35,154 nt of DNA from the IMG/VR virus record IMGVR_UViG_3300042482_001018, positions 1-35,154 of that record. The stretch is one strand, 5' to 3'. The first letter of the stretch is position 1. Each line of letters begins with the position of its first letter. This stretch comes from a virus. The translations under genes and the position numbers were made by a program. Of this stretch, positions 7,663 to 32,644 are shown one piece after another. The notes under the pieces were generated by a model. It was not told where the DNA came from. It did no database searches and worked only from the letters and a program-made list of their open reading frames with translations.

Positions 7663-8054
7663 CCTCCGCCCCCTCCATGCTCAAGCAAGACCTCTACCGC
7701 AGTCCGAAGCTCGCGGTGCGGCGGAGCCCTGTGCATCGCTGGGGAGTCTTTGCGGTCGAGCCTATTGCCGCTCACGAACTCCTTGAGGAGTCACCCTTTT
7801 TCTACCTCGACAAACGCGAGATCAAAAAAGCCCCCGCCTGCGAGCCCTACACCTACTACTTTGACGACGCCTGGAGCATCGTCGGCCTCGGCCTCGCCGG
7901 ACTCTACAACCACGCAACCACCCCCAACGCAGACCACCAAATCGACAAATTAAACGAGGTCATGCGGCACTACTCCACCCGCGCCATCCAGGCCGGTGAG
8001 GAGATCACACTCCACTACGGCGAAGAAAACGCCGCCAACTTCCAGAAAGACTAA
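7659..8054 (+). CDS. SET-domain protein (possible lysine methyltransferase)
   Basis: This encodes up to 131 residues; the ATG at 7659 overlaps the upstream stop (ATGA), and a second in-frame Met at residue 7 (7677) is possible. The order of SET motifs is preserved: RWGVFAVEPIAAHELLEE (about 28-44), GLYNHATTPNAD (81-92) and the C-terminal GEEITLHYG (113-121). SET proteins transfer methyl groups from S-adenosylmethionine to lysines. The usual NHS of motif III reads NHA, but the Asn-His and the catalytic-type Tyr (LHYG) are kept. There are no pre- or post-SET Cys clusters, so this is a minimal compact SET like small viral forms. It lies between a tail fibre and a virion protein, so a phage or host protein target is plausible but unproven. 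Confidence 0.8.
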   Translation: MTSAPSMLKQDLYRSPKLAVRRSPVHRWGVFAVEPIAAHELLEESPFFYLDKREIKKAPACEPYTYYFDDAWSIVGLGLAGLYNHATTPNADHQIDKLNEVMRHYSTRAIQAGEEITLHYGEENAANFQKD

Positions 8055-8059
8055 ATACT

Positions 8060-10597
8060 ATGCCAATGAACATGAGCAACGGTGGAGGTGGTGGAGCAAT
8101 GAGCGCAGCGCCTGCGGCGATGAGTAACGCCATGTCCGGTGGCGGCAACGCCATGTCCGGTGGCAACAACGCCATGTCCAACGCAATGAGCGGCGGCATG
8201 GGCATGGGCGGCATGAGCGCCCCGCCAGCCCCGCAGCCGCGCAACTTTGCGGAGGAAATGGGAGCCATATCTGGCTCCGCCTCTGCAAACGCCCAATCGC
8301 AGGCCGACATCAGCGTAAACACCGCCGACCGACTCAGCGACCAAGCTATTGAAAGCACAGGCGACATCGCCAAGAAGCTCGGCGATAGCACCTACACCGC
8401 CGCCGCTAACCAAAATATCCGCGACGCTGGGACATCCTCCGCCCAGCTCGGCCAGAGCTACAATCAAGTCGGCCAAGTCGCCGACCGTGTGGCCGCCTAC
8501 AACGACCCCGCCCAAGCCCGCCTCAACGAGATGGCCCTCGGCCAACTCTACCGGCCCGACCAAGTTTCCTCTCAATCCGTCTCCGCCGACCAAGCGCAAG
8601 GTGCCCGCGTCGCCGATGTCGGCCGCATGCAAGCCGCCCAGGCCAATGGCCCCTCCGACGTCCAAGGCCCCGCAGGCTACAGGCCCGATCAAGTTTCCTC
8701 CCAAGCCGTCTCGGGCGCTCAAGTCGGCCCAGTCGGCGACATGCAAGCCGCCCGTGCCAACGCAGCCCGTATGCGCCAAGTCGCCGATGTGCAAGGTGCC
8801 AGCGTAGGCGGACTCGAGCGAGTCGGCGGCGTGCAAGTCGGCGGCGTGGACCCCATGGAAGCCGCCCGCATACGGCGCACGCAGGATGTCACATCCCGCG
8901 ACATCCGCGCCAGCGGAGCCGAGCGAGCACTCATGGACGAAGCCCGAAGCAATGGACTCTACGGGCAACTCCGCGACCAAGCCAGCAACGACCTCTCCCT
9001 CGGCCGGTCCCTCTCCGCCGAGCAAAGCCGCGACGCAATCCAATCCTCCCGCGCCGCATCCTCCGCCCGTGGACTCGGCCTCGGCCAATCCGCCATGGCC
9101 GCCGAGCTCCTCAACCGCGACCGCTTCGCTACTGCCAGGGAAAACGAACGCCGCACCTTCGCAGGCAATGTGCTGAACCAAGGCACGGGTCTCCAGCAAG
9201 CCGCCAACCAAGCCTACATGGGCCGCCAAGAGAGCAATGTCGGCCGCTCACTCCAAGCAGGGCTCGCCAACCAATCCGTCGCCGCCAACCGATCCCTCCA
9301 GCAAGCCCAGCTCAACCAGCAAGCTGGGCTCACCACCAACCAAAACGCCCAGCAACGCGTCCTCGCCGAGGCCGGTTACGCCCAGCAGGCCGGACTCTCA
9401 AACCAAGATTTCGCCTTCCGCGCAGGCTCGCAGGACGCCCAACTCCAGCAGCAAGCCGGACTCGCCAACCAGCAATCCGCCCTGGCGACCAACCAATTCA
9501 ACGCCGCAAACCGCCAGGCGACCAGCCTCCAAAACGCCCAGTTCGCCCAGCAGGCTGGCCTTGCCAACCAATCGACCGCCCTCCAACTCGGCCAAACCAA
9601 CGCCCAATTTCAACAGCAAGCCGCCCTTGCCAACCAATCCGCCGGACTCCAGGCAGGCCAGCTCAACCAATCCGCCAACGCCCGAGCCGCTGAGTTTCAA
9701 CAGCAAGGTGGCCTCCAAGCCTCGCTCGCCAACCAGCAGACCGGCCTCCAGCTCGGCCTCACCAACGCCCAACTGCAACAACAGGCCAACTCCGCCTCCT
9801 ACGAAGCCTCCCAGCAATCAGCCATGGCAAACGCAGGCTACGCGCAGCAGGCAGGGCTGGCAAACCAACAGGCCAACCTCACCGCCGCTCAATACAACAG
9901 CAGCCAAAACCTCGCCGCGCAGAACGCCAACCAATCCGCAAACTACAACGCGAACTACGCGAACCAAAATTTCCTGCAAGGCGTCTCCAGCCAGAATTTC
10001 AACCAATTTTCCGGCCAGCAAGGCATGCTCGGCTCCCTCTACGGCCAGCAAGCAGGCATCGCCCAAAACCAATACACCAACAACCTCGGCCTCGCCCAGG
10101 CCAACGTCGCCCTCGACCCCTACCAACGCGCACTCGGCAGCAACATCCCTATAGCCAGCCAAGGCAACGCCGCCAACATGATCGGCCAGAGCTTCGGGAA
10201 TACCATGACCTACGGCAACGACGTCTACAACACCAACACCAACATGCAGGCGAGCTTGTATAACAGCTACAATAACAACACCACCGCCCTTAAATCTGCT
10301 AATATCCAATCCGACGCCTCACGCGACGCCGCTGGCATGGGACTACAAGGTGCGGCTATGGGAGCAAGCGCCATCATAGGAGCCGCCGCCGCAGCCTGTT
10401 GGGTAGCCCGCGCCGCCTTCGGCACGACCACTACTCGTTGGGTGGAATACCGCCGCGCCATGCTCCGCCATGCCAGCGACCGCACGATCCGCCTCTACTG
10501 CCAGCACGGCCAATCCATCGCCGCCGCCATCACCACGCCACTCCGCCGCCTCGTAGCCCGCCTCACACTCCGCACCCTTCAATGGTCCTGGAACTAA
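8060..10597 (+). CDS. Repeat-rich virion protein with CWVAR C-terminal module
   Basis: This encodes 845 residues. Residues 1-60 are a Met/Gly/Asn/Ser low-complexity segment with repeated NAMSGG units. Residues about 165-225 contain a duplicated block (RPDQVSSQ-VS). Residues about 390-640 are tandem Gln/Asn-rich QQAGLANQ-type repeats, probably a long helical or fibrous rod. After a small hydrophobic Ala/Gly segment, the C-terminus (from Cys780) is a short module, ACWVARAAFG...RWVEYRR...YCQHGQSIAAAI, related to the CFI-box/CWVAR C-terminal domain seen on unrelated phage virion proteins. The last 16 bases overlap the YcaO gene start, so the two are translationally linked. It is probably an internal or ejected virion protein. 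It is also the best placed candidate substrate of the downstream YcaO-TfuA pair, which is an inference. Confidence 0.7.
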   Translation: MPMNMSNGGGGGAMSAAPAAMSNAMSGGGNAMSGGNNAMSNAMSGGMGMGGMSAPPAPQPRNFAEEMGAISGSASANAQSQADISVNTADRLSDQAIESTGDIAKKLGDSTYTAAANQNIRDAGTSSAQLGQSYNQVGQVADRVAAYNDPAQARLNEMALGQLYRPDQVSSQSVSADQAQGARVADVGRMQAAQANGPSDVQGPAGYRPDQVSSQAVSGAQVGPVGDMQAARANAARMRQVADVQGASVGGLERVGGVQVGGVDPMEAARIRRTQDVTSRDIRASGAERALMDEARSNGLYGQLRDQASNDLSLGRSLSAEQSRDAIQSSRAASSARGLGLGQSAMAAELLNRDRFATARENERRTFAGNVLNQGTGLQQAANQAYMGRQESNVGRSLQAGLANQSVAANRSLQQAQLNQQAGLTTNQNAQQRVLAEAGYAQQAGLSNQDFAFRAGSQDAQLQQQAGLANQQSALATNQFNAANRQATSLQNAQFAQQAGLANQSTALQLGQTNAQFQQQAALANQSAGLQAGQLNQSANARAAEFQQQGGLQASLANQQTGLQLGLTNAQLQQQANSASYEASQQSAMANAGYAQQAGLANQQANLTAAQYNSSQNLAAQNANQSANYNANYANQNFLQGVSSQNFNQFSGQQGMLGSLYGQQAGIAQNQYTNNLGLAQANVALDPYQRALGSNIPIASQGNAANMIGQSFGNTMTYGNDVYNTNTNMQASLYNSYNNNTTALKSANIQSDASRDAAGMGLQGAAMGASAIIGAAAAACWVARAAFGTTTTRWVEYRRAMLRHASDRTIRLYCQHGQSIAAAITTPLRRLVARLTLRTLQWSWN

Positions 10598-11757
10598 CAG
10601 AGAAAATCCGACTCGAAGGAGCCCACCGCGCCTGCACTCCAGAGCAAACGCTGGAGCGCATGCGGCCGCATTTCCACGCCGCAGGCATTACCCGCCTCGC
10701 CGAGATCACCGGGCTCGACCGCATCGGTATTTGTGTTGCCCAGTGCATCCGGCCAGATGCCATAGTGCTGGCCGTAGATTCCGGCAAAGGAGCCACTCCT
10801 GCCGCAGCGAAATGCTCGGCTATGATGGAAGGCTTCGAGCGCCATGTCGGCGAGACCAGCCTCCCCCGGCACATCCTCGCCACCGCAGCGCAGCTCGGCG
10901 ACAAAGCCGAGACACGCCTGCCGCTCTCCAAGGGAGCTGTCTTCCACCCCCACGCCCTCATGCCGTGGACCGAAGTGCGAGGCCTACAAAGTGGAGCTGC
11001 CCGCATGGTGCCTACCGACACCGTGCGCCTCATCGCCCGTCCAGACCCCGCCCCGCTTACCAGCCTGCCATTTGCCTACACAAGCAACGGCCTCTCCTCT
11101 GGCAACACCTACGCCGAAGCTGTCTGCGGTGGCCTCTACGAGTGCATCGAACGCGACGCCACAGCCATCGCCCAGCACAGGCTACAAGATTTTCCCCGTG
11201 TCGATCTCGACACCATCACCGACCCCACCGTAGCCCGGCTCGTCCGCACACTGCGAGACGCCGACATCACCCCCGTGCTCCTCGATGTCACCAGCGACAT
11301 CGGCCTGCCCACCTACATAGCCTACCTCATCGACTGCGAGAGCGGCTGCGGAGTCAATAAAGGCTACGCCGCCCACCTCGATCCAGCCGTGGCCCAAGCC
11401 CGCGCTCTCACCGAGACCATCCAAGCCCGCGCTGTATGGATCGCCGGAAGCCGCGACGACTTCCTCCACGCCCGCTACGAGATGGTCAAAGCCACCGACT
11501 CCTCCGCCATTCTCGCCCGCCTCTACAAGCACGCCACCACCAGCGCAAACGCCCATCCCGACCGCTCCCGCGACACCTTTGAGGCAGACATAGACACCCT
11601 CCTCAATCTCCTCGATGCCGCCGGCGTCCCCGAGCCACTCGTTTATGAGTTCCCCCACGACTACCCATGCGCCGTGGTGCGAATCATAACCCCTACGCTG
11701 GAAGGCTACACCTTCGACTACTCGCAACCAGGCCACCGCGCCAGGAGGGCTAAATGA
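10582..11757 (+). CDS. ycaO: YcaO-domain protein (ATP-dependent amide-backbone modification)
   Basis: This encodes 391 residues from the ATG at 10582, which overlaps the end of the upstream virion gene by 16 bases. The frame stays open further upstream, but only as a shadow of that gene. YcaO motifs are clear: SGKGATPAAAKCSAMMEGFERH (residues 67-88), SNGLSSGNTYAEA (168-180) and LYECIERDA (185-193), the ATP/Mg-binding core. YcaO enzymes use ATP to activate a peptide-bond carbonyl, giving azolines from Cys/Ser/Thr or, with a TfuA partner and a sulfur donor, thioamides. The C-terminus lacks the Pro-rich end of azoline-forming E1-independent types. The TfuA gene follows with an ATGA overlap. No ThiF-like or ocin-ThiF partner and no precursor peptide gene is visible. 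Codon usage matches the neighbours, so it is a settled part of the phage. Confidence 0.93.
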   Translation: MVLELTEKIRLEGAHRACTPEQTLERMRPHFHAAGITRLAEITGLDRIGICVAQCIRPDAIVLAVDSGKGATPAAAKCSAMMEGFERHVGETSLPRHILATAAQLGDKAETRLPLSKGAVFHPHALMPWTEVRGLQSGAARMVPTDTVRLIARPDPAPLTSLPFAYTSNGLSSGNTYAEAVCGGLYECIERDATAIAQHRLQDFPRVDLDTITDPTVARLVRTLRDADITPVLLDVTSDIGLPTYIAYLIDCESGCGVNKGYAAHLDPAVAQARALTETIQARAVWIAGSRDDFLHARYEMVKATDSSAILARLYKHATTSANAHPDRSRDTFEADIDTLLNLLDAAGVPEPLVYEFPHDYPCAVVRIITPTLEGYTFDYSQPGHRARRAK

Positions 11758-12770
11758 AAATCTTCCTCGGCCCCACCCGCCCCGGCAATATCCCCGCCGA
11801 TGCCGACCTCCGCCCCCCGGCACAGCAAGGCGACATCGCCGCCGCCGCTCTCGAAGGCCCAGATACCATCCTCCTCATCGACGGCCTCTTTCACCAAAGC
11901 CTTGCCCCCTGGCACAAGGAAATCCTCTTCGCTATCGAGCAGGGATGCCGCGTCATCGGCGCAGGCAGCCTCGGCGCACTCCGCGCCGTCGAGTGCGCCC
12001 GCTACGGAGCCGAGCCCGTCGGCATCATCGCCGGGTGGTATGCCGACGAATCCTGCACCGACGATGCCGATGTAGCCCTCGCCCACGGCCACGCCGAAGA
12101 CGGCTACCGCGCCCTCTCCATTCCAATCGTCAACCTCCGCGCCACCGCCGAGTGCCTCGTCGCCGACGGCCTCCTGCCGGCGGCCGACCTCGCAGGCATC
12201 CTCGCCACAGCCCGCAGCATCTACTATGTCGAGCGCAGTTGGCCCCGCCTCCGCCAAGCCCTCGGCCTCGTAGCAGACCTCCTCCGCGAGAACTACCGCA
12301 ACCAGAAAGCCCTCGACGCCGAGAAAGCCATCCGCCACGCCCAGCATGTCGCCGCTCCCCTCCAGCGCGACACGCCCCAGCACACGCACAGCGCCTATTT
12401 TCTCGCCCTCCTCGCCAATGACCTGCCAACCGGCGACGGCCAACGCCAGCACCACCTCACCAGCGAAGCCGACCGCACCCTCGCCACCGACCGCCACCTC
12501 GTCTCCGAGTTGGCCCAACTCCTCGGCATCGTCACCACCCCCGAAGACATCTTCGCCGCCAGCACCCGCATGTGGCATCGCCTCGGCATCACCGACTCGA
12601 AAACCGCAAAATGCTGGCTCTCCGAGCACGCCTGGACCGACGAGCAATGGTATGCCCACGCCCAGCGCGAAGCCCTCCGCCAATCCGCCCGCGATTGGCA
12701 CAACGCCAGCGGTGCCTGCCTCGACATCGTTCCACTCACCCTCGCCCACAACTTACTCAACCCAGCCTAA
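11754..12770 (+). CDS. tfuA: TfuA-like protein, partner of YcaO
   Basis: This encodes 338 residues; the ATG overlaps the YcaO stop (ATGA). The conserved TfuA core is intact: LLIDGLF (40-46), HKEILFAIEQG (54-64), GAGSLGALRAVE (69-80), GWYADE (94-99) and DDADVALAHG (103-112). The remaining about 200 residues are helical, as in many TfuA proteins. TfuA occurs next to YcaO in thioamide-forming systems, such as methyl-coenzyme M reductase thioglycine in methanogens and thioamide RiPPs of the thioviridamide and thiovarsolin types. There it is thought to help deliver sulfur or activate YcaO. Its presence here points to thioamidation rather than azoline formation. The sulfur source would have to come from the host, because no sulfur-carrier gene is seen nearby. 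Confidence 0.93.
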   Translation: MKIFLGPTRPGNIPADADLRPPAQQGDIAAAALEGPDTILLIDGLFHQSLAPWHKEILFAIEQGCRVIGAGSLGALRAVECARYGAEPVGIIAGWYADESCTDDADVALAHGHAEDGYRALSIPIVNLRATAECLVADGLLPAADLAGILATARSIYYVERSWPRLRQALGLVADLLRENYRNQKALDAEKAIRHAQHVAAPLQRDTPQHTHSAYFLALLANDLPTGDGQRQHHLTSEADRTLATDRHLVSELAQLLGIVTTPEDIFAASTRMWHRLGITDSKTAKCWLSEHAWTDEQWYAHAQREALRQSARDWHNASGACLDIVPLTLAHNLLNPA

Positions 12771-13313: not shown

Positions 13314-14201
13314 ATGGACGCCCCCCAATCCACCGACCTCATCACCTTCGCGGAGAACTACAATATGGGCGGCGCCGTGCCTCAGCCGCCTCCCAAGGCA
13401 TCCAAAGGCAACAGCTTTGATTTTGGCAGCATCGTCGTGCAATCCGACGAGGATTTCGCCCGACTGCCAGACTCGCAAAAGCAACTCCTGCGAAACATGA
13501 AGCAGGGCATCCAATATACGCCGCAGGCCGCTGCTGAATTCGTTGAGACCTTCAATACCCGCCTCATCGAGCAGTCAACGCCAAAAGCCCAAGCCGAGGC
13601 GTCCGCAGCTCAGTTGTCGGCCCGCAAAACCCAACTCGATATCGGCAAGCTAGAGCAAGAGACCATCGCCAAGGCGAAGGAACAAGCCGAGATCGATGTG
13701 CGCAAGCAACTCGTCCTTGGAAAGATCGAAAAATTTACAAACCCAAAAGCACAAGGGTATACACCGATGGACGGTCTGGTGGGCAAGTGGGATGGGTCCG
13801 CAGGGGCGATGATTGACTCTGGCGGATGGAACGATGCCAAGGCAGCCCAGCGTGCCGAACTCGAGCGACTCGTTAATAACGACGTGCTAGAGCTCACGAA
13901 ATTCCTAAAGCCCGTCTCCCAGGACGAATTGAAATTCCTCAAAAGCATGACGCCGCGTCTCCACCAGAACGACACGATCTGGAAGGACTACCTGCTGGAT
14001 GCCAAGACACGCATCGAAGGTGCAGGTCAACCCGCGCCATCCCAAGCGCCAACACAGCCGGCCGCCCAACCAAACTCCGCCGCCGCTTTCCACCAAGCCC
14101 CGCCACAGGCAGCCCCAGCGCAACCCGCCGCTCCACAATCCCGCGTGATACGCGGACAACGCTTCGTACAACTCCCCAATGGCAACTGGATCCCCCAATA
14201 G
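13314..14201 (+). CDS. Coiled-coil virion-associated protein
   Basis: This encodes 295 residues. Residues about 85-140 form a charged coiled coil (KAQAEASAAQLSARKTQLDIGKLEQETIAKAKEQ). Residues about 145-225 are a helical domain, and residues about 235-280 are a Pro/Ala/Gln-rich linker (APSQAPTQPAAQ). The protein ends in a short conserved-looking motif, IRGQRFVQLPNGNWIPQ, that resembles terminal tags on other phage internal proteins. The end overlaps the next, very large gene by 23 bases. No family is recognised. Context suggests an internal core or tail-tip protein that works with the 1855-residue protein. Confidence 0.55.
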   Translation: MDAPQSTDLITFAENYNMGGAVPQPPPKASKGNSFDFGSIVVQSDEDFARLPDSQKQLLRNMKQGIQYTPQAAAEFVETFNTRLIEQSTPKAQAEASAAQLSARKTQLDIGKLEQETIAKAKEQAEIDVRKQLVLGKIEKFTNPKAQGYTPMDGLVGKWDGSAGAMIDSGGWNDAKAAQRAELERLVNNDVLELTKFLKPVSQDELKFLKSMTPRLHQNDTIWKDYLLDAKTRIEGAGQPAPSQAPTQPAAQPNSAAAFHQAPPQAAPAQPAAPQSRVIRGQRFVQLPNGNWIPQ

Positions 14202-17200
14202 AGAATTCTCCACCGAGGAACTCGATGCCATGGCCGCAGCCGAGCTGCCGGTCGAGAATCCAGAAACTTCCCGCACCGCCTCTGCTCCCGTAGCAAGCGC
14301 ACCAACAGCGCCTGAAGCAACAGGCTCACCCGAGTTGGCCGTCGGGGACGGGACTTCTTTTTCCATGCAAGAGCCGCCTCGCGGTCCCGCTATGGGACCC
14401 GTCGCAAAACTCGAGGCCGGACGAGAGTACTCGACCGAGGAACTCGACCGCATCGAACAAGCCAACAAGCCCAAGGAGTACACCGCAGACGAACTCGACA
14501 AGGCAACCGTCGATGCACTCAACGACCCAAAGTACATCCCAACGCGGGACGAGTACTTCGAGCAGAAGGAGACCAAGGAACGCATGGTCGCCGCTGGCAA
14601 GCTGCCAGGCACCGCTGAGCTAGGAGCGAAGTTGGTGGGCGGATTATTTGTGACACTGGCAGATGCCGCATACACATATCTGGTAGATGCAGAAGGAAGC
14701 ATCACAAAACTACCAGAAACGTGGGATCGCGCTATGGCTGGAAAATTAAAGTATGCTCCAGGAGAATCTCTAGCTAGATCCCCAGCAACACTCCAGACTG
14801 GTTTGGGACGAGCATCACTTGAAGCACTAAAGCTCGGAGGATGGGCCAAGCAACTCCTCGAGGGTGACCCGAAGTACCGCGACGAGGCGACGGGAGAATT
14901 CTTCACATTTAGCGATCCCGATTTCCTGCGCCAGCAGATGGAGCAAGGCAAAAAACTCAGACCGACCAACGAGGAAGACCTCAAGGACTGGGAATTCGAG
15001 AACCATCTTTTCAAAAAAGGCATCGATTCCGAGTACCAAGACCTGGGACAAAAGGCCGGACCCACCGAGCTACTCGCCCGCGTACTCACCGGACGCAACC
15101 AAAACGAGCTCCCCATCGAGTCGCAGTCTCAAGTCGCAGAGATGGGATTAGATATTACAAATGCAATTCCATTCGGCGCCGGAGCGAAGGCGCTGGGATT
15201 ATCTCGCGGCATGAAGCTCGTCTCTTCACAGGCGGCAGGAGTCGTCGAGAAGCTCTCAGGCGGGCTGGTAAAGGGCAACGATGTTCTAGCCGAGCGCTTC
15301 GCCAAGGTCGTTACCAACACCACAGGACTCGCGCCCGAGGACTTAACGACGATGGGCAAAGCACTCAATTACGGAAAAAATGTAGGCATCGGCGCAGGCA
15401 TCGCCGGAGGCGCAGCCGCAGTAGGAGCGCCGCCCGAGGTCGCTGCATTCATCACGGGATTCTACCCCGCGTACAAAGCAGGCTTAGGCGTGCTCCGCAA
15501 AATCGAGACTGGGGCCGGAACGACTAAGATCATCATGCGCGAAGCCGCCGACGCCACGAACGGCCTCGACCAAGCCGCCCGCGCCGCCGTGCTGGCAAAC
15601 AACTCCGTGCCGCAGGTCTTCAAGGAAGTCCTAGAGCGTCCAAGCCAGTTCGTCAGCATCGAGAGCACACCCGCCCGACTCGCCGCGAATCAATCTCTCT
15701 CTCCGCAGATGCGTGCCTTCATGGGCAAGCTGTCGAACCCCGCCATCGTCCAAGCCGTGCGCGGATCCAGCGCACTCGCCAAGGGCGCCGTGAAAGGCGC
15801 AGCTATCAACGCCCCCTTCGCCGCTCTCGCCTACAACGCCGGAGAGGACGAACAAGCCGCCGGCATGCTCGGCGCTGGCGTCGCCTTCGGTGCCGCAGGT
15901 GCAGGCATCGATAGATTCACAGGTCTCCAGGAACGCCGCCAACAGGCCGCCATCTCCGACGTATCCCGCATGCTGGTAGATGTGGAACTCAACGCCGGAG
16001 ATGTCTCCAAGCTCATGTCCACGCAGACACCAGACAACCTCGTCAAGCTCGCCGCCATGCAGGGCACGTTCCGCAACGGCCTTGACTTCGTCCCGCTCAA
16101 CGCCATCGACTACGAGAAAAATGTGTCCTCCAATGGAGGTGCTGGTGCGGCCGGTCTTTTTCTACAAGCTATCCCAGGCGAACGCGCACGCATCTACATC
16201 AACCTCGACGCGAAACGCCAAGGCATCGAGCCGCACGAATTCGGCCACGCCCTGCTCGCGAGCGGCGCCCTCGACGGACAGCAAAAGTACGCCGCCCGCG
16301 CTTGGGTAGAGAAAGCCTACGGATCCGACGGCATCAAGTCCCGAGCCTCCGAATACGCCAGTGCCATCATCAGAGCCAAAAACTCCGAGGCATTCCCCGA
16401 CGGCAACTTCGAGATCAGCCCAGGCACACTCGCCAGCGAGATGGACAACCTCACGCAGGGCGGACTCGCCAGAGGCGACATGGACGGGCTCGACTGGGCC
16501 CGAGACGAGATCTTCGCCGAGACCTTTGCCCAAGCCAGCCAGTCGATGGACTTCTCAGCGATCCGCCGAGGAGCACCCGCCGGCGGCAACGTCCTCACCT
16601 TCGCCGAGGGTATCCTCGGAGCCCAATCCCGAGCCCTCTCCGCGAGCGGTGTGCGTATCGACTCGCAGACCGGCGCCCCGCTCGACACGCCGGACGCCCT
16701 TTTCAAAGATAACCCGCTCCTCGCCACCGACAAGAATCTCATCAACCAACTCGGGACCTACATCAATAACTACCGGCAGTGGGCAAACGACCCGACCCAC
16801 GAAAAGCCACGCCCCAACAAAGTCGCCCCCAGCGGCCGCGCCAGCGACGTCATCAACAACCCTCAGGTCACCTTCTACGACAGAGGAGACGGAGTCAAAG
16901 CCACCACCTTCGCCGTACAAGACCCCGTCACCGGACAGGCCGTCCTCCGCGACCAGCGCGACCTCAACGCCGAGCACGCCAAGGTCAAAGATCAACTGAA
17001 GGCCCTCGGAGGGTCCAAGCTACTCCAGCCATCCGACCCCGTCCTAGGCCCCAAGAAGACAACCGACGGCCGCGTGACCGTGCGTGGACGTGTGCTGCCG
17101 CAGTCCTTCGACTTCCTCAACGGATTCATGCCGCACATCCGCAACTTCGCTCGGCAGTTTGAAGCCCTCGGAGCCGCAGGCGAAAGCATGCAGGTCCGCT

Positions 17201-19746
17201 ACCACGCCATCGGCAGCGGAGACTCCGGCGCATTCCAGATCAAGAAGCTCGGCAACCTCGAGGCCATCACCCGCGAAGTCGTGCCGTGGGGCTGGGAGCT
17301 CACCAAGGCCGGAAACCTCAACGCGACCGTGCTCGATCTCTCGCAATTCCGCAACCGCGCCATGCGAGCCATCAACGATAACAACCCCGCGCTCGCCGTC
17401 TTCGAGTGGGACATTGGCAAGATTGAGGGCGACCTCAAGCAGTGGATGCAGAACCACCGCTCCGAACTCCCAGGCAACAACAAAATCGGCGACCTCAAGC
17501 GCGACGTGCTCAACTCCCTCGTCGGTGTCGCCACGACCGAGAACAGATCCCGCAACCCGCTCCACGGATCCTTCGGCCCTGGAAGCGCGATCAAGCAATT
17601 CCGCCTCGACCGCGTAGACGCCGCCGTCGGCACCGGACGCCAAGGCTTCCACTTCGACTACGAAAAAGCCAAAGGCAACTTCATGCCAGACAAACCCGCC
17701 CCCATGCCGGACTTGTCAAGAGACCTGCCAACGGATAAAGGCCAAGCTGTGCCGGAGAACACTCCAACTACAGGAAAACCATTTGAGTTTTTCTCAATAA
17801 GAAACAAAGAAAAATCTCCATTCCTTGGATCACGGTTTGGACAGGATATCGAGCCACATGGGAAATACATGGCTGAATCCACGCCCCGAGCTTCGGAAAA
17901 TCTGGATGCACGATTTGAAAAAGGAGCGGTTCGTTTTGAAAACCCACTTGTCGTTGATTTTGGAGGTGGCTACGGCGACTCATCTAACTGGAAAAATGTC
18001 CTTTCAAGCCAATATGAAGGAAAAACAGGATTAGAGCTATCGCAAGCCATCCGAGATGCTGGCCACGATGGAATTATCACCATGGAGCCTTCCAAAGGCC
18101 CCAACCGGCCAGCCCATACAAGTGAGATCGTAGATATCCGAAACCTGCAACCCCAAGGCCAAGCGATGCCGGATGCGGTGCCGGACAAAATATCTGGTGC
18201 ATTACCGAGACGCGGTGCTACCATATCTGGTAAAGCGGAGGTATCAAATGACGGAACGATCACATACAAAGGCAAAGAGCCAGCGCAATGGAACCCGCAA
18301 GAATTTGAAGCGTTTGGTAAAGAATTCGGTGTCCGAAACCTTGGCCCTATCAGCAAAATCTCCAATATCGTGGATGAGCTGGGAAGACCTGTGGCGCAAA
18401 TACCCGGTGGACTTGACGGAAAGTTTACCTACTACGACCTCCTACACCTCAAAGCCAACGCGGTAGATGTAAGAACTCTGCCTGTTGATTTGCACGGGCA
18501 ACTAACAGCCAAGCTGGCCCGCACGATGGCGCCAGATCGTGGAAACAAGGTGCAAAAGTTCAATGGCATCCTTTTCGGAATGCTGTCACCGAATTCACCA
18601 CTGCTTCCAAATGAATTTGGCCAAGCCCGTATGAGATTCGGCTCGATGGACGAAATCAAAAAGTTCGCCGATCTCCTTCCAGACAATCCTACCAAGGATC
18701 AGCGCAAGGCAGTCAATGAACGGCTCAAAAAAGAACTTGGATTCACCGCCGCCAAGAGCGGGGGTCTCGGCATCGGCATTTCGGTGGACTTGTCCAACAT
18801 CGTGATAGCCGCAAAAATGTTCCACAAGAATCCTGATTTCTTTATCAAAAAACCCAAGGAATCCTGGGCAAACTTCGTAGACAAGCTCACCACTCAGGTA
18901 TCTGGTCTTGGAACCAAAACGGCATCCTTCGGCGGAGTCTGGCAAGATCCGTTGAACGCCGGTATTTCGGCTATGGACCGCCACATGGCCAGAGCATTCA
19001 GCGACGAACTTCTCAACAATCCCGACATACGCGGAAGGTTTGAAGGAATTATTGTGAAACGATTTAATAATCTCGTCACAGAATCCAAAGATACCGCCAG
19101 AAAAGCCGACGCCAAAATTCGCAGAGCAAAAACTGAAAAAGCCAAGGCAGCAGCAGAACAAGAAAAGGCCACGGCTATGCAGAACCTGCCTGACCCCACT
19201 GCACTCAATGCGGACACATTAGACGATGTGCTCGGCCAAGCAGAAATCTTCGGCGCAGACCGCGTTAAAGATTTCGTCAACGAGGCCGTGTTTGCCGCCA
19301 TGGGCAGTCGCAAAGCGAAGTATCAGATGAATGATGGAACCGTGAACCCCAACCTTCCCCCATCAATTCAAGGCGTAGAATGGGTTCAAACACCCAAGGA
19401 TTTTCAAGTCATGTCCGAAGCATACAGACTTGCTCTGGAGATCAATGCCGAGCGTGCAAAATCAATAGGCATCGAAATTTTCCCAGCGCAATGGACTCTG
19501 TGGGATCGCATCAGGGGTCGCGTTGAGCCGCATGAAGCGATGTTTCCTGGTCTTGAAAAACTCCCCGCGCTCAATGACAGGCAACTCGCCTCGGCTTTCT
19601 CTGCCAACAAAAAAGCCGGATACGCCTCCACTCCCGCTCCAGGTCAACCGTGGAAACGCAAATCTGGGATCAATCCTGCCGAGTTGGCTTACTTCGGAAT
19701 CCCGATTGCCGCCGCCGCAATGTCACAGCAAGAAGACGAAAAGTAA
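14179..19746 (+). CDS. 1855-residue polyvalent-type internal/ejected virion protein
   Basis: Three short repeats of the form (F/Y)(S/T)xEELD lie at the N-terminus (residues 10-16, 84-90 and 101-107). Hydrophobic Gly/Ala-rich segments near residues 395-420 and 555-570 could insert in a membrane. HEFGH at 686-690 is a zinc metalloprotease HExxH motif, as in MPTase-type polyvalent proteins. Around residues 1195-1320 the pattern GKYMAE...LSQAIRDAGHDGIITM...SEIVDIRNL resembles ART-type (ADP-ribosyltransferase-like) polyvalent domains. Around 1470-1605, GILFGMLSPN, GLGTKTASF (1576-1584) and MDRH (1599-1602) resemble an HhH-GPD glycosylase-like fold. A charged coiled coil follows at about 1630-1670. 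Such giants are carried in the virion and injected with DNA. The ART and HhH calls are weaker than the HExxH call. A terminator follows. Confidence 0.8.
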   Translation: MATGSPNREFSTEELDAMAAAELPVENPETSRTASAPVASAPTAPEATGSPELAVGDGTSFSMQEPPRGPAMGPVAKLEAGREYSTEELDRIEQANKPKEYTADELDKATVDALNDPKYIPTRDEYFEQKETKERMVAAGKLPGTAELGAKLVGGLFVTLADAAYTYLVDAEGSITKLPETWDRAMAGKLKYAPGESLARSPATLQTGLGRASLEALKLGGWAKQLLEGDPKYRDEATGEFFTFSDPDFLRQQMEQGKKLRPTNEEDLKDWEFENHLFKKGIDSEYQDLGQKAGPTELLARVLTGRNQNELPIESQSQVAEMGLDITNAIPFGAGAKALGLSRGMKLVSSQAAGVVEKLSGGLVKGNDVLAERFAKVVTNTTGLAPEDLTTMGKALNYGKNVGIGAGIAGGAAAVGAPPEVAAFITGFYPAYKAGLGVLRKIETGAGTTKIIMREAADATNGLDQAARAAVLANNSVPQVFKEVLERPSQFVSIESTPARLAANQSLSPQMRAFMGKLSNPAIVQAVRGSSALAKGAVKGAAINAPFAALAYNAGEDEQAAGMLGAGVAFGAAGAGIDRFTGLQERRQQAAISDVSRMLVDVELNAGDVSKLMSTQTPDNLVKLAAMQGTFRNGLDFVPLNAIDYEKNVSSNGGAGAAGLFLQAIPGERARIYINLDAKRQGIEPHEFGHALLASGALDGQQKYAARAWVEKAYGSDGIKSRASEYASAIIRAKNSEAFPDGNFEISPGTLASEMDNLTQGGLARGDMDGLDWARDEIFAETFAQASQSMDFSAIRRGAPAGGNVLTFAEGILGAQSRALSASGVRIDSQTGAPLDTPDALFKDNPLLATDKNLINQLGTYINNYRQWANDPTHEKPRPNKVAPSGRASDVINNPQVTFYDRGDGVKATTFAVQDPVTGQAVLRDQRDLNAEHAKVKDQLKALGGSKLLQPSDPVLGPKKTTDGRVTVRGRVLPQSFDFLNGFMPHIRNFARQFEALGAAGESMQVRYHAIGSGDSGAFQIKKLGNLEAITREVVPWGWELTKAGNLNATVLDLSQFRNRAMRAINDNNPALAVFEWDIGKIEGDLKQWMQNHRSELPGNNKIGDLKRDVLNSLVGVATTENRSRNPLHGSFGPGSAIKQFRLDRVDAAVGTGRQGFHFDYEKAKGNFMPDKPAPMPDLSRDLPTDKGQAVPENTPTTGKPFEFFSIRNKEKSPFLGSRFGQDIEPHGKYMAESTPRASENLDARFEKGAVRFENPLVVDFGGGYGDSSNWKNVLSSQYEGKTGLELSQAIRDAGHDGIITMEPSKGPNRPAHTSEIVDIRNLQPQGQAMPDAVPDKISGALPRRGATISGKAEVSNDGTITYKGKEPAQWNPQEFEAFGKEFGVRNLGPISKISNIVDELGRPVAQIPGGLDGKFTYYDLLHLKANAVDVRTLPVDLHGQLTAKLARTMAPDRGNKVQKFNGILFGMLSPNSPLLPNEFGQARMRFGSMDEIKKFADLLPDNPTKDQRKAVNERLKKELGFTAAKSGGLGIGISVDLSNIVIAAKMFHKNPDFFIKKPKESWANFVDKLTTQVSGLGTKTASFGGVWQDPLNAGISAMDRHMARAFSDELLNNPDIRGRFEGIIVKRFNNLVTESKDTARKADAKIRRAKTEKAKAAAEQEKATAMQNLPDPTALNADTLDDVLGQAEIFGADRVKDFVNEAVFAAMGSRKAKYQMNDGTVNPNLPPSIQGVEWVQTPKDFQVMSEAYRLALEINAERAKSIGIEIFPAQWTLWDRIRGRVEPHEAMFPGLEKLPALNDRQLASAFSANKKAGYASTPAPGQPWKRKSGINPAELAYFGIPIAAAAMSQQEDEK

Positions 19747-20071: not shown

Positions 20072-21079
20072 ATGGACTTACACAAACTATTGCCGGAATT
20101 TGATAGGGTGAAAGCGCGATGGGTGATCGATGTTCCCAGCTCGCTGAATAAGGGCATTCGTAAAAGATATTTTTTCAAAACAGCGGAGGAGGCGAATCGG
20201 GCGCATGCGGATCTCATTTATTCGCTCACTCTGACGGGTGATTTGCCGAGCACTACGAAGTCGGGTGAAAGCGTGGCTTTCTTTGCGGCTCAGTTTCTCG
20301 CTAAGAAATCTCTCGAGGTGGAGCCGGTGTCGCTGCGCCAAATTAAGTGGGGCATAAATTTGCTGTGCCAGAAGTGGGGGCGCAAGCGTCCAGCAGACCT
20401 AAAGCCGGCACACATGCGTGCCTGGATCGATTCTTTGCCGCTGACGACTCGCGGGAGGTGGAATGTGTTTGCGGTCTGCCGCGATTATTTTAACTCACCG
20501 ATTGGTCGTGAGGCTGTCTCGGCTAACCCGTTCAACGATGCGCCTCCGAAACGAGACAAGGGCGCGAGGTTGCCTATCCTGACTCTGGAGCAAATGAAGG
20601 CGCTGTTGGCCCATGAGTGGCCGGTGTGGTTCAAGTCTTGGTTGGTTGCTGGCGCCTTTGCTGGACTACGAACGCGAGAGATCTTTGCGGTGGACAACTC
20701 GGCCATTGATTGGGAGTACAAGGAGATCGTGATCCGACGCGAGGATGCAAAGCAGGGCGAGGCGGCGCGGCCTCGCTCGGCTACCATTCAAGACCCTTTT
20801 GCGCGACACATGCCGAGACGCTCGGGGCCGCTGGTCGATGGCTGGTGGAAGAAGGGCTGGGAACGGACGGCGAAGGAGGCGTGCATGGTTATTGGCGTGG
20901 ATGTGTCTCTTGGATGGCCTACGAATTGCCTGCGACATTCGTTTGCTTCTTACCATCTGGCCCATTTTAAGGACGCAACGAAAACGGCCTTTGAGATGGG
21001 GACTTCGCCGGACTTACTTTACGCCACATACGCAAATCTTGTATCCCGCCGCGATGCAGAGAAGTGGTGGGCGCTGTGA
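20072..21079 (+). CDS. int: Tyrosine-family integrase
   Basis: This encodes 335 residues. A core-binding SAM-like domain spans about residues 65-150, and the catalytic domain begins near 168. The catalytic signature is visible: Arg200 in AGLRTRE, LRHSFASYH with Arg288 and His289, and the nucleophilic Tyr in LLYATYANLV (Tyr320 is the best candidate, Tyr317 the alternative). The second His/Trp position is occupied by MGTS. Tyrosine integrases join attP to a tRNA attB, which matches the tRNA-Ser fragment upstream. The N-terminal arm-binding domain is short. The gene is preceded by phased TGTCA boxes and is convergent with the lipoprotein gene, from which it is separated by 4 bases. Confidence 0.92.
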   Translation: MDLHKLLPEFDRVKARWVIDVPSSLNKGIRKRYFFKTAEEANRAHADLIYSLTLTGDLPSTTKSGESVAFFAAQFLAKKSLEVEPVSLRQIKWGINLLCQKWGRKRPADLKPAHMRAWIDSLPLTTRGRWNVFAVCRDYFNSPIGREAVSANPFNDAPPKRDKGARLPILTLEQMKALLAHEWPVWFKSWLVAGAFAGLRTREIFAVDNSAIDWEYKEIVIRREDAKQGEAARPRSATIQDPFARHMPRRSGPLVDGWWKKGWERTAKEACMVIGVDVSLGWPTNCLRHSFASYHLAHFKDATKTAFEMGTSPDLLYATYANLVSRRDAEKWWAL

Positions 21080-21582: not shown

Positions 21583-21876
21583 CTAGCCAGCCTTTCGGGA
21601 GGGCTTGGTCGCTCGAGTTGATGGCCCAGTATCGGAATTCTCGGAGGCTGGACTGATCACGACACCAACACTCCTCTTGGGCTTTTCGACTTTGGTTGCT
21701 TTGCGATCTGCTTCCATCATGGCGCGTATGGCCTTTTGGACCATCTTGGAAAAATCGGTGGGGCAGTATGCATTTTCTCGTTTGGCGTTGTGCTCCTCGA
21801 CTACTTCTTTCAAATAATCGAAGAGCTCTTTCGGCATCGAAATATTCACTTTTGATGATCCAGCTTTTGTCTTCAT
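21583..21876 (-). CDS. Ribbon-helix-helix DNA-binding protein (possible repressor)
   Basis: This encodes 97 residues on the minus strand. I choose the ATG at 21876, preceded by GGTGGG, over an upstream TTG at 21912, because the repeated GTAGCA boxes then fall in front of the gene. The N-terminus SSKVNISMPKELFDYLKEVVEEHN is the strand and first helix of an RHH fold, followed by FSKMVQKAIRAMMEAD as the second helix. The C-terminus is a basic, Ser/Pro-rich tail. RHH proteins bind DNA as dimers of dimers. It is divergent from a second RHH gene at 22034, with repeated boxes between them, the layout of a lysis-lysogeny or autoregulatory switch. Repressor function is inferred. Confidence 0.7.
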   Translation of the reverse strand: MKTKAGSSKVNISMPKELFDYLKEVVEEHNAKRENAYCPTDFSKMVQKAIRAMMEADRKATKVEKPKRSVGVVISPASENSDTGPSTRATKPSRKAG

Positions 21877-21885
21877 ATTCCCACC

Positions 21886-22033
21886 AGTAGCACCATTTGC
21901 TACCGAGTGCAAAATAAATTTACGCCTTCCGAGCTAGTGTTTATGTCGGTGTCAAGTGTTTTCTTCATTAGTAGATCACCCCACTTTTATTTTTTTCTTT
22001 ACTTGGTAGCACCAGTTTTATTTAGTAGCACCC
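21886..22033. promoter_or_regulatory. GTAGCA operator-like boxes between divergent RHH genes
   Basis: The core GTAGCACC occurs at 21887, 22006 and 22025, and an inverted TGCTACC occurs at 21898. One inverted pair sits just upstream of the minus-strand RHH start. The other two, 19 bases apart, end at the base before the plus-strand RHH start. The AT-rich stretch between (about 21910-22000) probably holds the divergent promoters, though no convincing -35/-10 pair is visible. Confidence 0.6.
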
Positions 22034-22505: not shown

Positions 22506-22660
22506 CGGCGACCTTTGGCATTTGCCTGGTCGTGCTGACCTTTGGGTCTTGCTGGGCCTGCTACCGGCTCGGGGTGGAAGAGGAGCGCCACCGCTGGGTG
22601 ACGATGCTTCGCAACCGCCGCAACCGCCGCCTCGATGACGAGGACAATTTCACAAAATAA
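22502..22660 (+). CDS. Small single-span membrane protein
   Basis: This encodes 52 residues starting at GTG (GTGA overlap with the upstream stop). An N-terminal hydrophobic segment (ATFGICLVVLTFGSCWACY) contains two Cys and is followed by a strongly basic cytoplasmic tail (RHRWVTMLRNRRNRRLDD) ending in acidic residues. The Cys/Trp-rich membrane edge and Arg-rich tail suggest an inner-membrane protein with the tail in the cytoplasm. No family is recognised. With its 39-residue neighbour it forms a small membrane pair at the start of the early operon. Confidence 0.45.
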   Translation: MTATFGICLVVLTFGSCWACYRLGVEEERHRWVTMLRNRRNRRLDDEDNFTK

Positions 22661-22673
22661 AAAAACACAAAAC

Positions 22674-23621
22674 ATGAAACTACAAATAGTAACTGGTAAA
22701 ATCCAGCGGGCCCAGCGGGTCTGCTTTTACGGGGTGGAGAGTGTCGGTAAGACGACTCTGGCCGCCAAGGCTCCATCCCCCCTCTTCCTCGATGTCGAGA
22801 ACGGCACTTCGCACCTTGATATTCCTCGGGTGGCGACTCCGACGTGGGCCGCTCTGAATGAAGCGGTGCGGGAGCTGGCAACGGAGAAGCACGAATTTAA
22901 GACAATAGTGCTGGACTCTATCGACTGGGCGGAGCGCTTGAACCATGAAGCTCTGAAGGAGGAGAAGAAAATCAAGAGCCTCGAGGAGATACCGTACGGG
23001 AAGGGCTTCACGATGGCGGCGGAGCGCATGGCTCGCTTCCTCGGTTCCCTCGACCTCCTAATCGAGGCTGGGATCCATGTCCTGCTGATCGGTCACGCCC
23101 AGGTGAAGCGGCAGGAACCACCGGACCAAGTGCTCCCGTACGACAGATACGAGCTGAAATTAACGAAGCAGGCGAGCCCTCTGGTGAAAGAATGGGTGGA
23201 CCACCTTTTCTTTCTGAACTTTAAGACCCGTGTGGTGGAGTCGGAGTCCGGCAAGGCGAAAGGACGAGGCGGCAAGGAGCGCATCATCTTGACCTCGCAC
23301 TCGGCGGCCTACGACGCGAAGACCCGCTCGGCTCTGGCGGAGGAACTCCCGATGGAGTGGGCGAGCATCGAGTCGCTCTTTGTCTCGAGCGTGCCGGCTA
23401 AGGTGCCGGTGCCGCAGCTTTCCCCGCTGGATATCCTCAAGGCAAAATTCAAGGACAAGGGCGACGAAATAACGGCATTCCTGCGGTACCGAGGCAAGAT
23501 CGGCGAGGACCAGCAGTGGACCGATGCTCCGCTGGACTACATCGCCCAAGTGCATGCGACCCCGTCGAAGTTCCTCGATGCGGTGGATGCGTGGAAAGCC
23601 TCCTGCGTGGAGCAGGCATGA
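22674..23621 (+). CDS. RecA-fold ATPase, Sak4-like recombination protein
   Basis: This encodes 315 residues from the ATG at 22674, after an A-rich leader. The Walker A motif is GVESVGKTT (Gly20 to Thr28), the Walker B is FKTIVLDSIDW (Asp81), and a sensor-like LLIGHAQVKR follows near residue 145. This is the AAA_24/phage nucleotide-binding protein pattern, related to Sak4 single-strand annealing ATPases. The C-terminal about 90 residues are variable. Sak4-type proteins anneal or pair DNA together with the phage SSB, and an SSB-like gene and an exonuclease lie downstream in the same operon, supporting this role. Confidence 0.8.
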   Translation: MKLQIVTGKIQRAQRVCFYGVESVGKTTLAAKAPSPLFLDVENGTSHLDIPRVATPTWAALNEAVRELATEKHEFKTIVLDSIDWAERLNHEALKEEKKIKSLEEIPYGKGFTMAAERMARFLGSLDLLIEAGIHVLLIGHAQVKRQEPPDQVLPYDRYELKLTKQASPLVKEWVDHLFFLNFKTRVVESESGKAKGRGGKERIILTSHSAAYDAKTRSALAEELPMEWASIESLFVSSVPAKVPVPQLSPLDILKAKFKDKGDEITAFLRYRGKIGEDQQWTDAPLDYIAQVHATPSKFLDAVDAWKASCVEQA

Positions 23622-23851: not shown

Positions 23852-24895
23852 ATGAAACCATTGACATTAAAAGACATCCGTCCGTCCCTGCTCCCAAAGC
23901 TCTGGGAGTGCCCTAAGTACCGGCCGAAGCCTGGGCCTGCGGGTCCGGCTGCGGAGCGGGGCACCCGTATGGACGAGTCATTCCGCTACGCCGTGATGGG
24001 CGACCGCTCGAAGCTTGAGGCGCTACCTCCCGAGGACGGCGCCAACGTGCAGTGGGCTATCGACTTGGTGGAAAGATACAAGTGCAACGGCACGCTGGAG
24101 GCCCGAGAGGAGTACCTAGCCATGCCTGTGCCTGGGCTACCTCACGTCGGCACCGCAGATATCCTTTGCGACCGCACCGGTTGGGTAGGGGATCTCAAGA
24201 CGGGCCAGATGCGCAATTATTTTCCGCAGATGGCGGCCTACGCCCTGTCTTGTATGGTGCGCACGTTTGAGCAGAACTGGGCGACCCACATCATCTACTG
24301 CGACCAGCAGAAGGTACTGAGCTACAACTGGACGCTGGAACATGCGCAGGAAACTATCGACACGATAAAAGCCGCTGCGCTGGACCCGAATTCCCAGCCC
24401 CAAGCGTGCGACTACTGCACCTGGTGCGCGAATTATGCCACATGCCCTGCCGTGGTCCGTCCCATCCTCGATGGGCTCGCAGTCATCGATGTGCCCAAGA
24501 CCTCGGTGCCGGAGATCCTCGAGCGGGTGATGGCTACGCCGGAAACTCTGGCTCAGTTCGCCTCTCAATGGAAGGCCGTCGAGAAGGCGGTGGCCGAGCC
24601 GGCCCTCGATGAGCTCAGAAGATTACTCGAGGAGGGCGGCGAGGTAGACGGCTGGAAGATCACCGAGGTGAATGGCCGCGAGTACTTTGACGTGGAGGCA
24701 ATCCTGCACGTTGCACGCGAAACGAATGCCCCAGTCGAGAGCATCATCTTGGCTATGGGCGGCAAGATGTCTGGCAAGTCCTACCGAGAGTGGGCTGCTG
24801 CGCTCGGCCGTGAACCTCTCCCATCCCACAGCCGCACCGGATCGCCAAGCAAACAACTTCGCCAGGTGAAAACCAAACCCAAGCTGAAAAACTAG
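23852..24895 (+). CDS. RecB/Cas4-like PD-(D/E)XK exonuclease with Fe-S cysteines
   Basis: This encodes 347 residues. The nuclease core is HVGTADILCDRTGWVGDLKTGQ, with Asp103, Asp114 and Lys116 as metal ligands and catalytic Lys, followed by a QMAAY motif (126-130). Cys20 near the N-terminus and a Cys cluster CDYCTWCANYATC (186-198) match the one-plus-three Cys arrangement of AddB/Cas4-type 4Fe-4S nucleases. Such DUF2800-like phage nucleases supply 5'-3' resection for single-strand annealing, matching the Sak4-like ATPase upstream. The C-terminal third is helical and basic, possibly DNA-binding. An 88-base GC-rich gap follows. Confidence 0.8.
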   Translation: MKPLTLKDIRPSLLPKLWECPKYRPKPGPAGPAAERGTRMDESFRYAVMGDRSKLEALPPEDGANVQWAIDLVERYKCNGTLEAREEYLAMPVPGLPHVGTADILCDRTGWVGDLKTGQMRNYFPQMAAYALSCMVRTFEQNWATHIIYCDQQKVLSYNWTLEHAQETIDTIKAAALDPNSQPQACDYCTWCANYATCPAVVRPILDGLAVIDVPKTSVPEILERVMATPETLAQFASQWKAVEKAVAEPALDELRRLLEEGGEVDGWKITEVNGREYFDVEAILHVARETNAPVESIILAMGGKMSGKSYREWAAALGREPLPSHSRTGSPSKQLRQVKTKPKLKN

Positions 24896-24983: not shown

Positions 24984-25484
24984 ATGGATAACGAAAATAG
25001 ATACGTCAACGAAACGGGCCGCTTCCTTTGCAAGGTCAAGGCCCCAGGGAACGGGTGGATCGGCGTCACCGACTCCGGCAGCGAATTCATCCGAGTGCCG
25101 GCGGTAGTGACCGACGCGGGTTCGCAAAACGGGCGCGAAATCGTCTGGCGCGGATACCTCACAGAGAAGGCCGCGAAGCGCACGATGCTCACGCTCGACG
25201 ATTGCTTCGGCAAGAACTGGGACATCAAGTCGCTCGCCAGCGGCACGGCTACCTTCGCAGGACAGGCGTGCTCGATCACCGTGGAGACCGAGGACTACAA
25301 CGGGGAGACCCGATTCAAGGCTCGCTGGCTCAACCCTTCGGAACAGACCCCGAAAAACGAAGTCGATCCCGACCTCATCGAAAAACTCATCGACCGCCTC
25401 TCGACCATAGACCGTGGCGACGACGTGAAGGTGCCGACAAAGCCCGCCAACAAAACCGCCGACGGAGACGACATCCCGTTCTGA
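24984..25484 (+). CDS. Single-stranded DNA-binding-like protein
   Basis: This encodes 166 residues. The middle (ETGRFLCKVKAPGNGWI..., residues about 10-115) is beta-rich, as expected for an OB-type fold. The C-terminus is acidic and ends in ADGDDIPF, very like the DDIPF tail of bacterial SSB that recruits partner proteins. Many phages with Sak4-type annealing ATPases encode a DUF669-like SSB nearby. Its position after the nuclease and before the RuvC-like gene, 2 bases away, supports a role in phage recombination and replication. Confidence 0.75.
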   Translation: MDNENRYVNETGRFLCKVKAPGNGWIGVTDSGSEFIRVPAVVTDAGSQNGREIVWRGYLTEKAAKRTMLTLDDCFGKNWDIKSLASGTATFAGQACSITVETEDYNGETRFKARWLNPSEQTPKNEVDPDLIEKLIDRLSTIDRGDDVKVPTKPANKTADGDDIPF

Positions 25485-31408: not shown

Positions 31409-31574
31409 CGCACGCACGCTGCGGAAGCGGGACGTGATGGAGTTGCTGGAGATCAGCGACGCCACCTACAAGACCTACGTCTCTGTCGGTCTCCTGCGGC
31501 CCATTGCAGCGCCAGCAGGCACACGGCACACGTTCACGCTGGCGAGCATCATCAAGCAATTTCAACTCCAATAA
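31383..31574 (+). CDS. Small helix-turn-helix protein
   Basis: This encodes 63 residues. TLRKRDVMELLEISDATYKTYVSVGLLRPIAAPAGTRHTFTLASIIKQFQ is a MerR/excisionase-like winged HTH. I choose the ATG at 31383, overlapping the terminase end. It may regulate late genes or act as a DNA-binding accessory in packaging. The excisionase-like gene at 22204 has a similar fold but different sequence. Confidence 0.6.
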   Translation: MLLAAGLTSARTLRKRDVMELLEISDATYKTYVSVGLLRPIAAPAGTRHTFTLASIIKQFQLQ

Positions 31575-31579
31575 ACACT

Positions 31580-31864: not shown

Positions 31865-31867
31865 GGA

Positions 31868-32056: not shown

Positions 32057-32065
32057 CGTGGTTAA

Positions 32066-32341: not shown

Positions 32342-32380
32342 ATTTTGATTTTCGGTTTTTTGGTTTGATTGGTTGGGTTT

Positions 32381-32403
32381 GGAGCGGGGATCGAACCCGC
32401 GCC
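32381..32403 (-). other. Isolated tRNA T-arm-like hairpin
   Basis: On the minus strand, GCGGG TTCGATC CCCGC forms a perfect T-arm (plus positions 32384-32400). No D or anticodon arm and no acceptor partner can be found upstream on that strand, so it is not a complete tRNA. It may be a tRNA remnant or a coincidental hairpin between two small genes. Confidence 0.35.
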
Positions 32404-32412
32404 GTTTTTTAG

Positions 32413-32592: not shown

Positions 32593-32644
32593 TTGATTTG
32601 GTTTTTTGGTTTCGTCGTCGCCGTGGTGGCTCCGATCTGGACAT

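Follow-up and report, generated by a model that had tools for sequence, protein, structure and literature searches.

The virus record IMGVR_UViG_3300042482_001018 of IMG/VR, which was analysed here as one complete stretch of 35,154 bases (the window), encodes a protein of 1855 amino acids (the chain) in a single open reading frame (ORF). We found that the front two-thirds of this chain form a conserved part, the chassis, and that its C-terminus is built from cassettes exchanged as modules at a short recurrent linker encoding the peptide GQAMPD or a variant of it; modular exchange at the linker was shown in the chain genes as well as in a second gene of related loci, a ribbon-helix-helix (RHH)-like regulator. 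Taking the data below together, we consider it rather probable that the chain is a phage protein of the polyvalent type with a conserved chassis and exchangeable cassettes, that the linkers mediate the swapping, and that the protein is delivered by the virion.

An IMG/VR search with the chain returned 20 loci (designated by L numbers), giving a conservation alignment of 21 chains. Nearly all of these loci aligned with residues 1 to ~1194 at 70-81% identity and then ended abruptly; L002 (54%) and L010 (64%) were outliers in chassis identity, L002 aligned to the chain end at 62%, and L005 and L010 reached further into the tail. Chassis DNA that was 95-97% identical over 2.6 kb was followed by unrelated tails in L015 (cassettes R-F) and L020 (G-B), and likewise, at 95-97%, in L007 (E) and L009 (K); because such closely similar chassis bear unrelated tails, exchange appears to be both recent and frequent. 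The junctions were then compared nucleotide by nucleotide over 62 chain joints, which gave 151 informative pairs, with positions numbered relative to the linker's first base. Where two joints shared one side, nucleotide identity was ~1.0 on that side and ~0.25 on the other, the linker being common to both: L052 and L089 were identical throughout the 120 nt preceding the linker and unrelated beyond it, and L015 and L018 gave the mirror case, sharing the downstream side with unrelated upstream sequence. Identity stopped at +18 in the upstream-sharing pairs (10-90%: 15-24) and started at -3 in the downstream-sharing pairs (-21 to 0); since all joints have similar linkers, what these positions tell us is that identity does not extend past the linker.

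The results further showed that the C-terminus of the chain draws on a set of about nine terminal cassettes and ten optional ones. The terminal classes are A, which is found in the window, B, D, E, F, K and L, with T and V occurring singly; the optional cassettes include I (ADP-ribosyltransferase (ART)-like, in the window), G, C, J, Q, U, H and M, as well as three diverged ART-PolyVal cassettes, O, R and S. More than 15 architectures were seen, and A, B, D, E, F, K and L each occur after different preceding cassettes: I-A (window), G-A (L002) and H-A (L109); C-B (L008), G-B (L020), G-C-B (L089) and I-J-Q-B (L005); C-D (L010) and J-D (L016); E alone (L006) and C-E (L080); R-F (L015) and U-F (L018); K alone (L009) and G-K (L052); L alone (L021) and G-L (L036). 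The single T follows S (S-T, L017). Profile-profile comparison of terminal class A with B, D and E was too shallow to relate them, and D and E have in common a short C-terminal motif, QAxxWxxEKDxW (E 0.0013, probability 19%). A cassette related to class D was also observed in a 3125-aa protein encoded at 5313-14690 of L124 (PQ492659.1, Limnohabitans phage DC33); this phage record of 39 kb is labelled Inoviridae, which looks wrong.

The same joint is present in a regulator gene. Behind the integrase, ten of the relatives (listed in the table below) carry a minus-strand gene with an RHH-like N-terminus, assigned by sequence inspection without profile support, followed by GQAMPD and then by a polar tail; the corresponding RHH-like gene of the window is without the GQAMPD linker. 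The L006 and L015 genes are unrelated before the linker and identical from the linker through the 100 nt that follow it, and between L007 and L015 the N-terminal side is shared instead. In 13 informative pairs the switch lay no more than about two bases from the linker. Thus, the predicted N-terminal DNA-binding part of this regulator and its tail are exchanged independently of each other at the linker.

The linker is 18 nt long and its DNA is mostly GGCCAAGCCATGCCGGAT, with joint peptides reading GQAMPD or one of the variants GQAVPE, GQAMPE, GQATPD, GQAFPA, GQAMPS and GQAMPN. A scan of 20 virus records, complete or partial, found the DNA pattern confined to the chain gene, in up to four copies, and to one other gene, once in many records; the reversed pattern, used as a control, had zero occurrences in the 20 records. 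The linkers of the chain are all direct and in frame, the sole opposite-strand copy lying within the RHH gene. In the window lineage the linker proline is encoded by CCG in 25 of 31 cases, compared with 20.5% in the rest of these genes, and the aspartate by GAT in 20 of 21, compared with 34.7%. A sister lineage (L109, L110, L112 and L127-L133), whose chassis is 28-37% identical to that of the window, shares the terminal classes A (76% identical), F (80%), B (54%) and E (42%), and has GQAMPD or AQAMPD at its joints, of which there can be several in one chain (L133). Its terminal joint is encoded by GGG CAG GCG ATG CCG GAT, against GGC CAA GCC in the window lineage, and GGG is found at 10/17 sister-lineage joints overall. 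Since the peptide was kept between the lineages while synonymous sites changed, the linker peptide itself appears to have a role; a role of the linker in DNA only was considered and is insufficient, as the sister lineage retains the peptide with other codons. More distant chains (L114-L119) contain cassette A at 62-67% identity among cassettes joined by FMP(D/E/A) or FKPAE. The DNA core ATGCCGG is often common to the GQAMPD and FMP/FKPAE linker families.

An initial annotation of this DNA had described one ORF for an injected protein combining protease, ART-like and HhH (helix-hairpin-helix)-like modules, with HEFGH as a clear HExxH motif. The ORF and the motif were confirmed. Over the 21 chains the H, E, G and H of HEFGH are invariant and the F is 95% conserved, and a second block downstream, RDEIFAETFA, is nearly invariant; HEFGH is nearly invariant, and RDEIFAETFA nearly conserved, in the sister lineage as well. 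The invariant positions together with this second block argue that HEFGH is not a chance HExxH. An AlphaFold model of residues 507-1187, built with 12 sequences, was of low confidence (predicted local distance difference test, pLDDT, 60); its order of elements, namely a helix, three strands, the HExxH helix and a Glu helix, is the one described for polyvalent metallopeptidases (Iyer et al., 2017; PMC5512222). Foldseek of this model against the PDB gave no significant zincin match, and a very weak line to IrrE, which is zincin-like (E 4.5), was not used. The chassis therefore likely carries a metal-dependent protease with a zincin signature and a predicted zinc site, the HEXXH helix and following Glu helix of polyvalent metallopeptidases being recognisable at the sequence level only. 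One chain, that of L113, has HELGE in place of HExxH, a broken site, together with a degenerate linker RAMPD and no optional cassettes; this single case fits the idea of a connection between linker and peptidase. At the N-terminus of the chassis, three copies of a motif were noted that might possibly serve in packaging or targeting, and hydrophobic Gly/Ala-rich segments are located at residues about 395-440 and 541-580.

For the ART-like and HhH-like modules the outcome was mixed. Cassette I, the proposed ART-like part, has no ART match by Pfam, PHROGs or PDB profile. It is also present in L005 and, at 75-89% identity, in unrelated chains of L104-L106, and is ~45% identical to gp167 of Gordonia phage Skog and to a protein of podovirus ctMEh928. 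Relatives hold ART-PolyVal (PF18760, curated cutoff 31.2 bits) above the cutoff in the same slot (L015, 35.5; L004, 35.9; L017, 34.6; L117, 54.8 bits), which makes an ART identity plausible for cassette I. Other phage loci, many of them with a different chassis, carry terminal cassette A at 63-97% identity. The segments GLGTKTASF and AMDRHMAR are kept in 11 relatives: G, K, T, D, R, H and R are invariant, and the spacing from the Lys to the Asp is 20 residues. We take this GxGxKTA...DxHxxR order to correspond to that of the HhH-GPD glycosylases and endonuclease III, with the catalytic Lys and then the Asp. Cassette A matched neither Pfam HhH-GPD nor PDB profiles, nor any fold by Foldseek with a poor model: residues 1192-1855, modelled by AlphaFold with 15 sequences, reached pLDDT 49 and gave no significant match in the PDB. 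The segments of cassettes I and A are real modules that are inherited separately, so the set of three modules in one polypeptide, which according to the initial annotation would make an anti-defence effector, is one combination among many in which the ART-like and HhH-like parts are interchangeable.

The features of the chain and its surroundings are collected below. The whole chain gave nothing above threshold against Pfam-A and PHROGs, and a scan of genome contigs with the chassis as query recovered neither a host genome nor a prophage. The nearest named phage is 'Phage C75C1', with 34% identity for the terminase and 31% for the capsid, and the lineage is accordingly poorly sampled. In size and setting the chain matches polyvalent proteins, with 1855 aa in a 35-kb record that holds head, tail and replication genes. 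Its position by tail and internal virion genes, together with the hydrophobic Gly/Ala-rich segments, would fit a protein delivered with the virion.

Features of the window (positions in the 35,154-base record unless a relative is named; residues are those of the chain)
Feature	Position	Strand	Residues	Remarks
Virion protein	4005-5903			upstream of chain; weak similarity to internal virion proteins
Tail spike	5935-7662			upstream of chain
SET-domain protein	7659-8054			PF00856, 1.3e-10
845-aa protein	8060-10597			upstream of chain
YcaO and TfuA-like, side by side	10594-12770			PF02624, 1.5e-63; PF07812, 1.1e-33
295-aa protein				upstream, overlaps chain start
Complete chain, 1855 aa	14179..19746	+		ORF list, translation; open, no internal stop
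Conserved chassis	14179..17739	+	1-1187	common to 20 IMG/VR relatives
REFSTEELD, REYSTEELD, KEYTADELD	14200..14499	+	8-107	three N-terminal motif copies; sequence inspection
Zincin-like metallopeptidase domain (predicted)	16030..16548	+	about 618-790	HExxH and downstream Glu helix
HEFGH	16234..16248	+	686-690	conserved
RDEIFAETFA	16501..16530	+	775-784	likely third zinc ligand region
Linker 1, GQAVPE	17740..17757	+		GGCCAAGCTGTGCCGGAG
Cassette class I, ART-like	17758..18156	+	1194-1326	between linkers 1 and 2
Linker 2, GQAMPD	18157..18174	+		GGCCAAGCGATGCCGGAT
Terminal cassette class A	18175..19743	+	1333-1855	HhH-GPD-like motifs (HhH-like part about 1344-1850)
GxGxKTA...DRHMAR signature	18904..18993	+		within cassette A; 11 sequences
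Tyrosine integrase	20072..21079	+		directly 3' of chain; phrog_1, 3.7e-21
Lipoprotein-like gene				downstream, after integrase
RHH-like regulator	21586..21933	-		behind integrase
RHH-like gene with GQAMPD	L003 17734-18120	-		also L006, L007, L009, L015, L016, L017, L018, L020, L021
Sak4-like recombinase (annealing protein)	22635..23621	+		phrog_124, 1e-45; kept in relatives
Exonuclease, possible recombination partner	23852..24895	+		phrog_69, 1.4e-16; kept in relatives
SSB-like protein	24984..25484	+		phrog_378, 2e-4
Replication genes, terminase, scaffold, major head protein				downstream of SSB

Several neighbours were noted in their own right. The SET-domain gene, which lies here in a phage genome, is also found in six relatives at ~62%. 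Relatives align with the 845-aa protein in part only, over 69 to 934 residues, and its gene may be a second mosaic gene. At least six relatives also have the YcaO/TfuA pair, with 66-98% identity; it too lies here in a phage genome, and no precursor peptide was identified for it. Between terminase and scaffold a gap of ~1.5 kb (31408-32952) has no long plus-strand ORF, and none of the window's genes was recognised as a portal gene.

On the reading that we favour, in which cassettes are swapped at the linkers of a virion-delivered chain, the 18-nt repeats would supply short homology through which phage recombination exchanges cassettes without loss of frame, either between co-infecting phages or with prophages. 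The nearby-encoded Sak4, exonuclease and single-stranded DNA-binding protein (SSB) would perform this short-homology annealing recombination; Sak4 of phage HK620 together with its SSB anneals single strands (PMC5928155), and Sak4-type proteins have been linked to phage mosaicism (PMC5499656). Gene position and the polyvalent-protein literature (PMC5512222) suggest that the chain would be delivered with the phage DNA and that its cassettes would act as effectors early in infection, possibly against host defence, in which case swapping probably varies what the chain does inside the host cell. The linker peptide would serve the protein as well, most likely as a hinge or as the place where the chain is processed by its own metallopeptidase. 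Several points weigh against this reading: the structure models of both segments are poor (pLDDT 49 and 60), the short conserved linkers could be passive survivors at places where selection tolerates joints, the bias towards CCG and GAT may stem from common descent rather than from a role at the DNA level, and the variability of the peptide, from GQAMPD to GQAMPN, is loose for a strict protease site.

Another account takes the linker to be primarily a processing site, at which a polyprotein would be cut at xMP(D/E) by the metallopeptidase or a head protease, exchange being a by-product at joints that are always tolerated. The maintenance of the linker peptide across lineages despite synonymous codon change, the same core in the other linker of the distant lineage, FMP(D/E/A), around the same HhH-like cassette, the zincin within the same chain and the self-processing proposed for polyvalent metallopeptidases (PMC5512222) all speak for it. 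However, position 4 of the linker accepts M, V, T and F, the virion RNA polymerase of phage N4, which has such a metallopeptidase, is packaged uncut (PMC5512222), and the linker-bearing RHH regulator has no obvious reason for cleavage; we regard this account as possible but doubtful. It is unlikely, in our estimate, that GQAMPD is a dual joint that both provides homology for cassette swaps and is cleaved by the metallopeptidase of the same chain; the injected chain would then be split into effectors, and an incoming chain could also cut the resident RHH regulator. That regulator comes into question as a target because the same joint parts its DNA-binding and tail regions, and if the idea were true, effector delivery would be linked to the lysogeny decision or to superinfection.

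The remaining alternatives fared worse. Programmed, shufflon-like switching of cassettes by a site-specific recombinase is suggested by the integrase gene that adjoins the chain both in the window and in those relatives that were inspected. The integrases are, however, of two unrelated types (64-68% versus ~28% identical to that of the window) and lie in both orientations while the linker is unchanged, neither inverted linker copies nor silent cassettes are present near the gene, and a temperate phage needs an integrase anyway; such switching is very improbable and was rejected. Internal translation starts at the linker, releasing free cassettes from ATG CCG, which at some joints is preceded by a weak AAGG at a distance of 7 nt, would agree with the ATG or GTG at most joints and with AAAGG or CAAGG upstream of several. 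In L006, L015 and L017, though, ACG and TTT stand in place of ATG, many joints are without a ribosome-binding site, and the RHH gene would yield just a 50-residue tail, so that we also rejected this explanation, to which we give hardly any credence. An injected anti-defence effector of fixed composition, combining three activities and differing at its C-terminus through ordinary divergence, would also account for the zincin signature and the ART-like and HhH-like motifs. Against this stand the unrelated tails on 95-97% identical chassis, and its fixedness is contradicted by the junction analysis; we consider its likelihood close to negligible.

Exchange points and delivered proteins of related kinds are known from other phages. 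In phage T4, Alt and the internal proteins carry an N-terminal capsid targeting peptide that is removed by the gp21 protease. Like these proteins, the chain uses a short peptide common to otherwise different proteins, with cargo that differs between related phages; unlike in T4, the peptide sits between cassettes inside one chain, where cleavage is hypothetical. Short repeats mark exchange points in the boundary sequences of lambdoid mosaicism and in the recombination boxes of tail fibres, whereas the linker lies inside one ORF, is serially repeated in frame and is shared with an unrelated gene. The shufflon has a constant N-terminus, exchangeable C-terminal segments, an adjacent recombinase gene, inverted sites and silent segments. 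The chain resembles it in the constant front, the swappable back and the adjacent recombinase gene, but no inverted sites or silent segments were found near the chain, and the integrase type varies while the linker does not. With the MuF polymorphic toxins (Jamet et al., 2017; PMC5576092) the chain has in common a temperate phage and variable C-terminal domains that include ART and metallopeptidase domains; it differs in having several serial cassettes where MuF toxins have one toxin domain, and Pfam gave no match to a MuF domain in the chain. The integrase begins within about 90-330 nt after the chain (window, L002, L003 and L009), and no toxin-specific immunity gene was seen, although ORFs under 70-90 aa are possible.

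Polyvalent proteins with metallopeptidase and ART domains, as described from phages and conjugative elements (Iyer et al., 2017; PMC5512222), and MuF toxins with variable C-termini (PMC5576092) are thus already known. The chain is like the former in being large and multidomain, with a zincin-like metallopeptidase (HEXXH and Glu helix), ART in the family and variable architectures, and delivery with DNA and self-processing have been predicted for these proteins (PMC5512222). It is unlike them in its fixed chassis and in having a single recurring peptide that both connects the cassettes and is the precise site of their exchange, with the same joint in a regulator gene; the word 'linker' is absent from the text of PMC5512222. 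A search of open-access papers turned up no joint of this kind, one that recurs along the chain, coincides with nearly every exchange and is also present in a regulator gene; absence from these papers is weak evidence. Polyvalent proteins are known to be mosaic, and to our knowledge the route by which domains are gained or lost in frame has not been shown to date. Here, the constant chassis, countable cassettes and single joint sequence make exchange readable to the nucleotide; any segment between two linkers becomes a candidate for a new early-infection effector, and both cutting at the joints by the metallopeptidase and the use of ~18-nt joints by annealing-type phage recombinases become testable.

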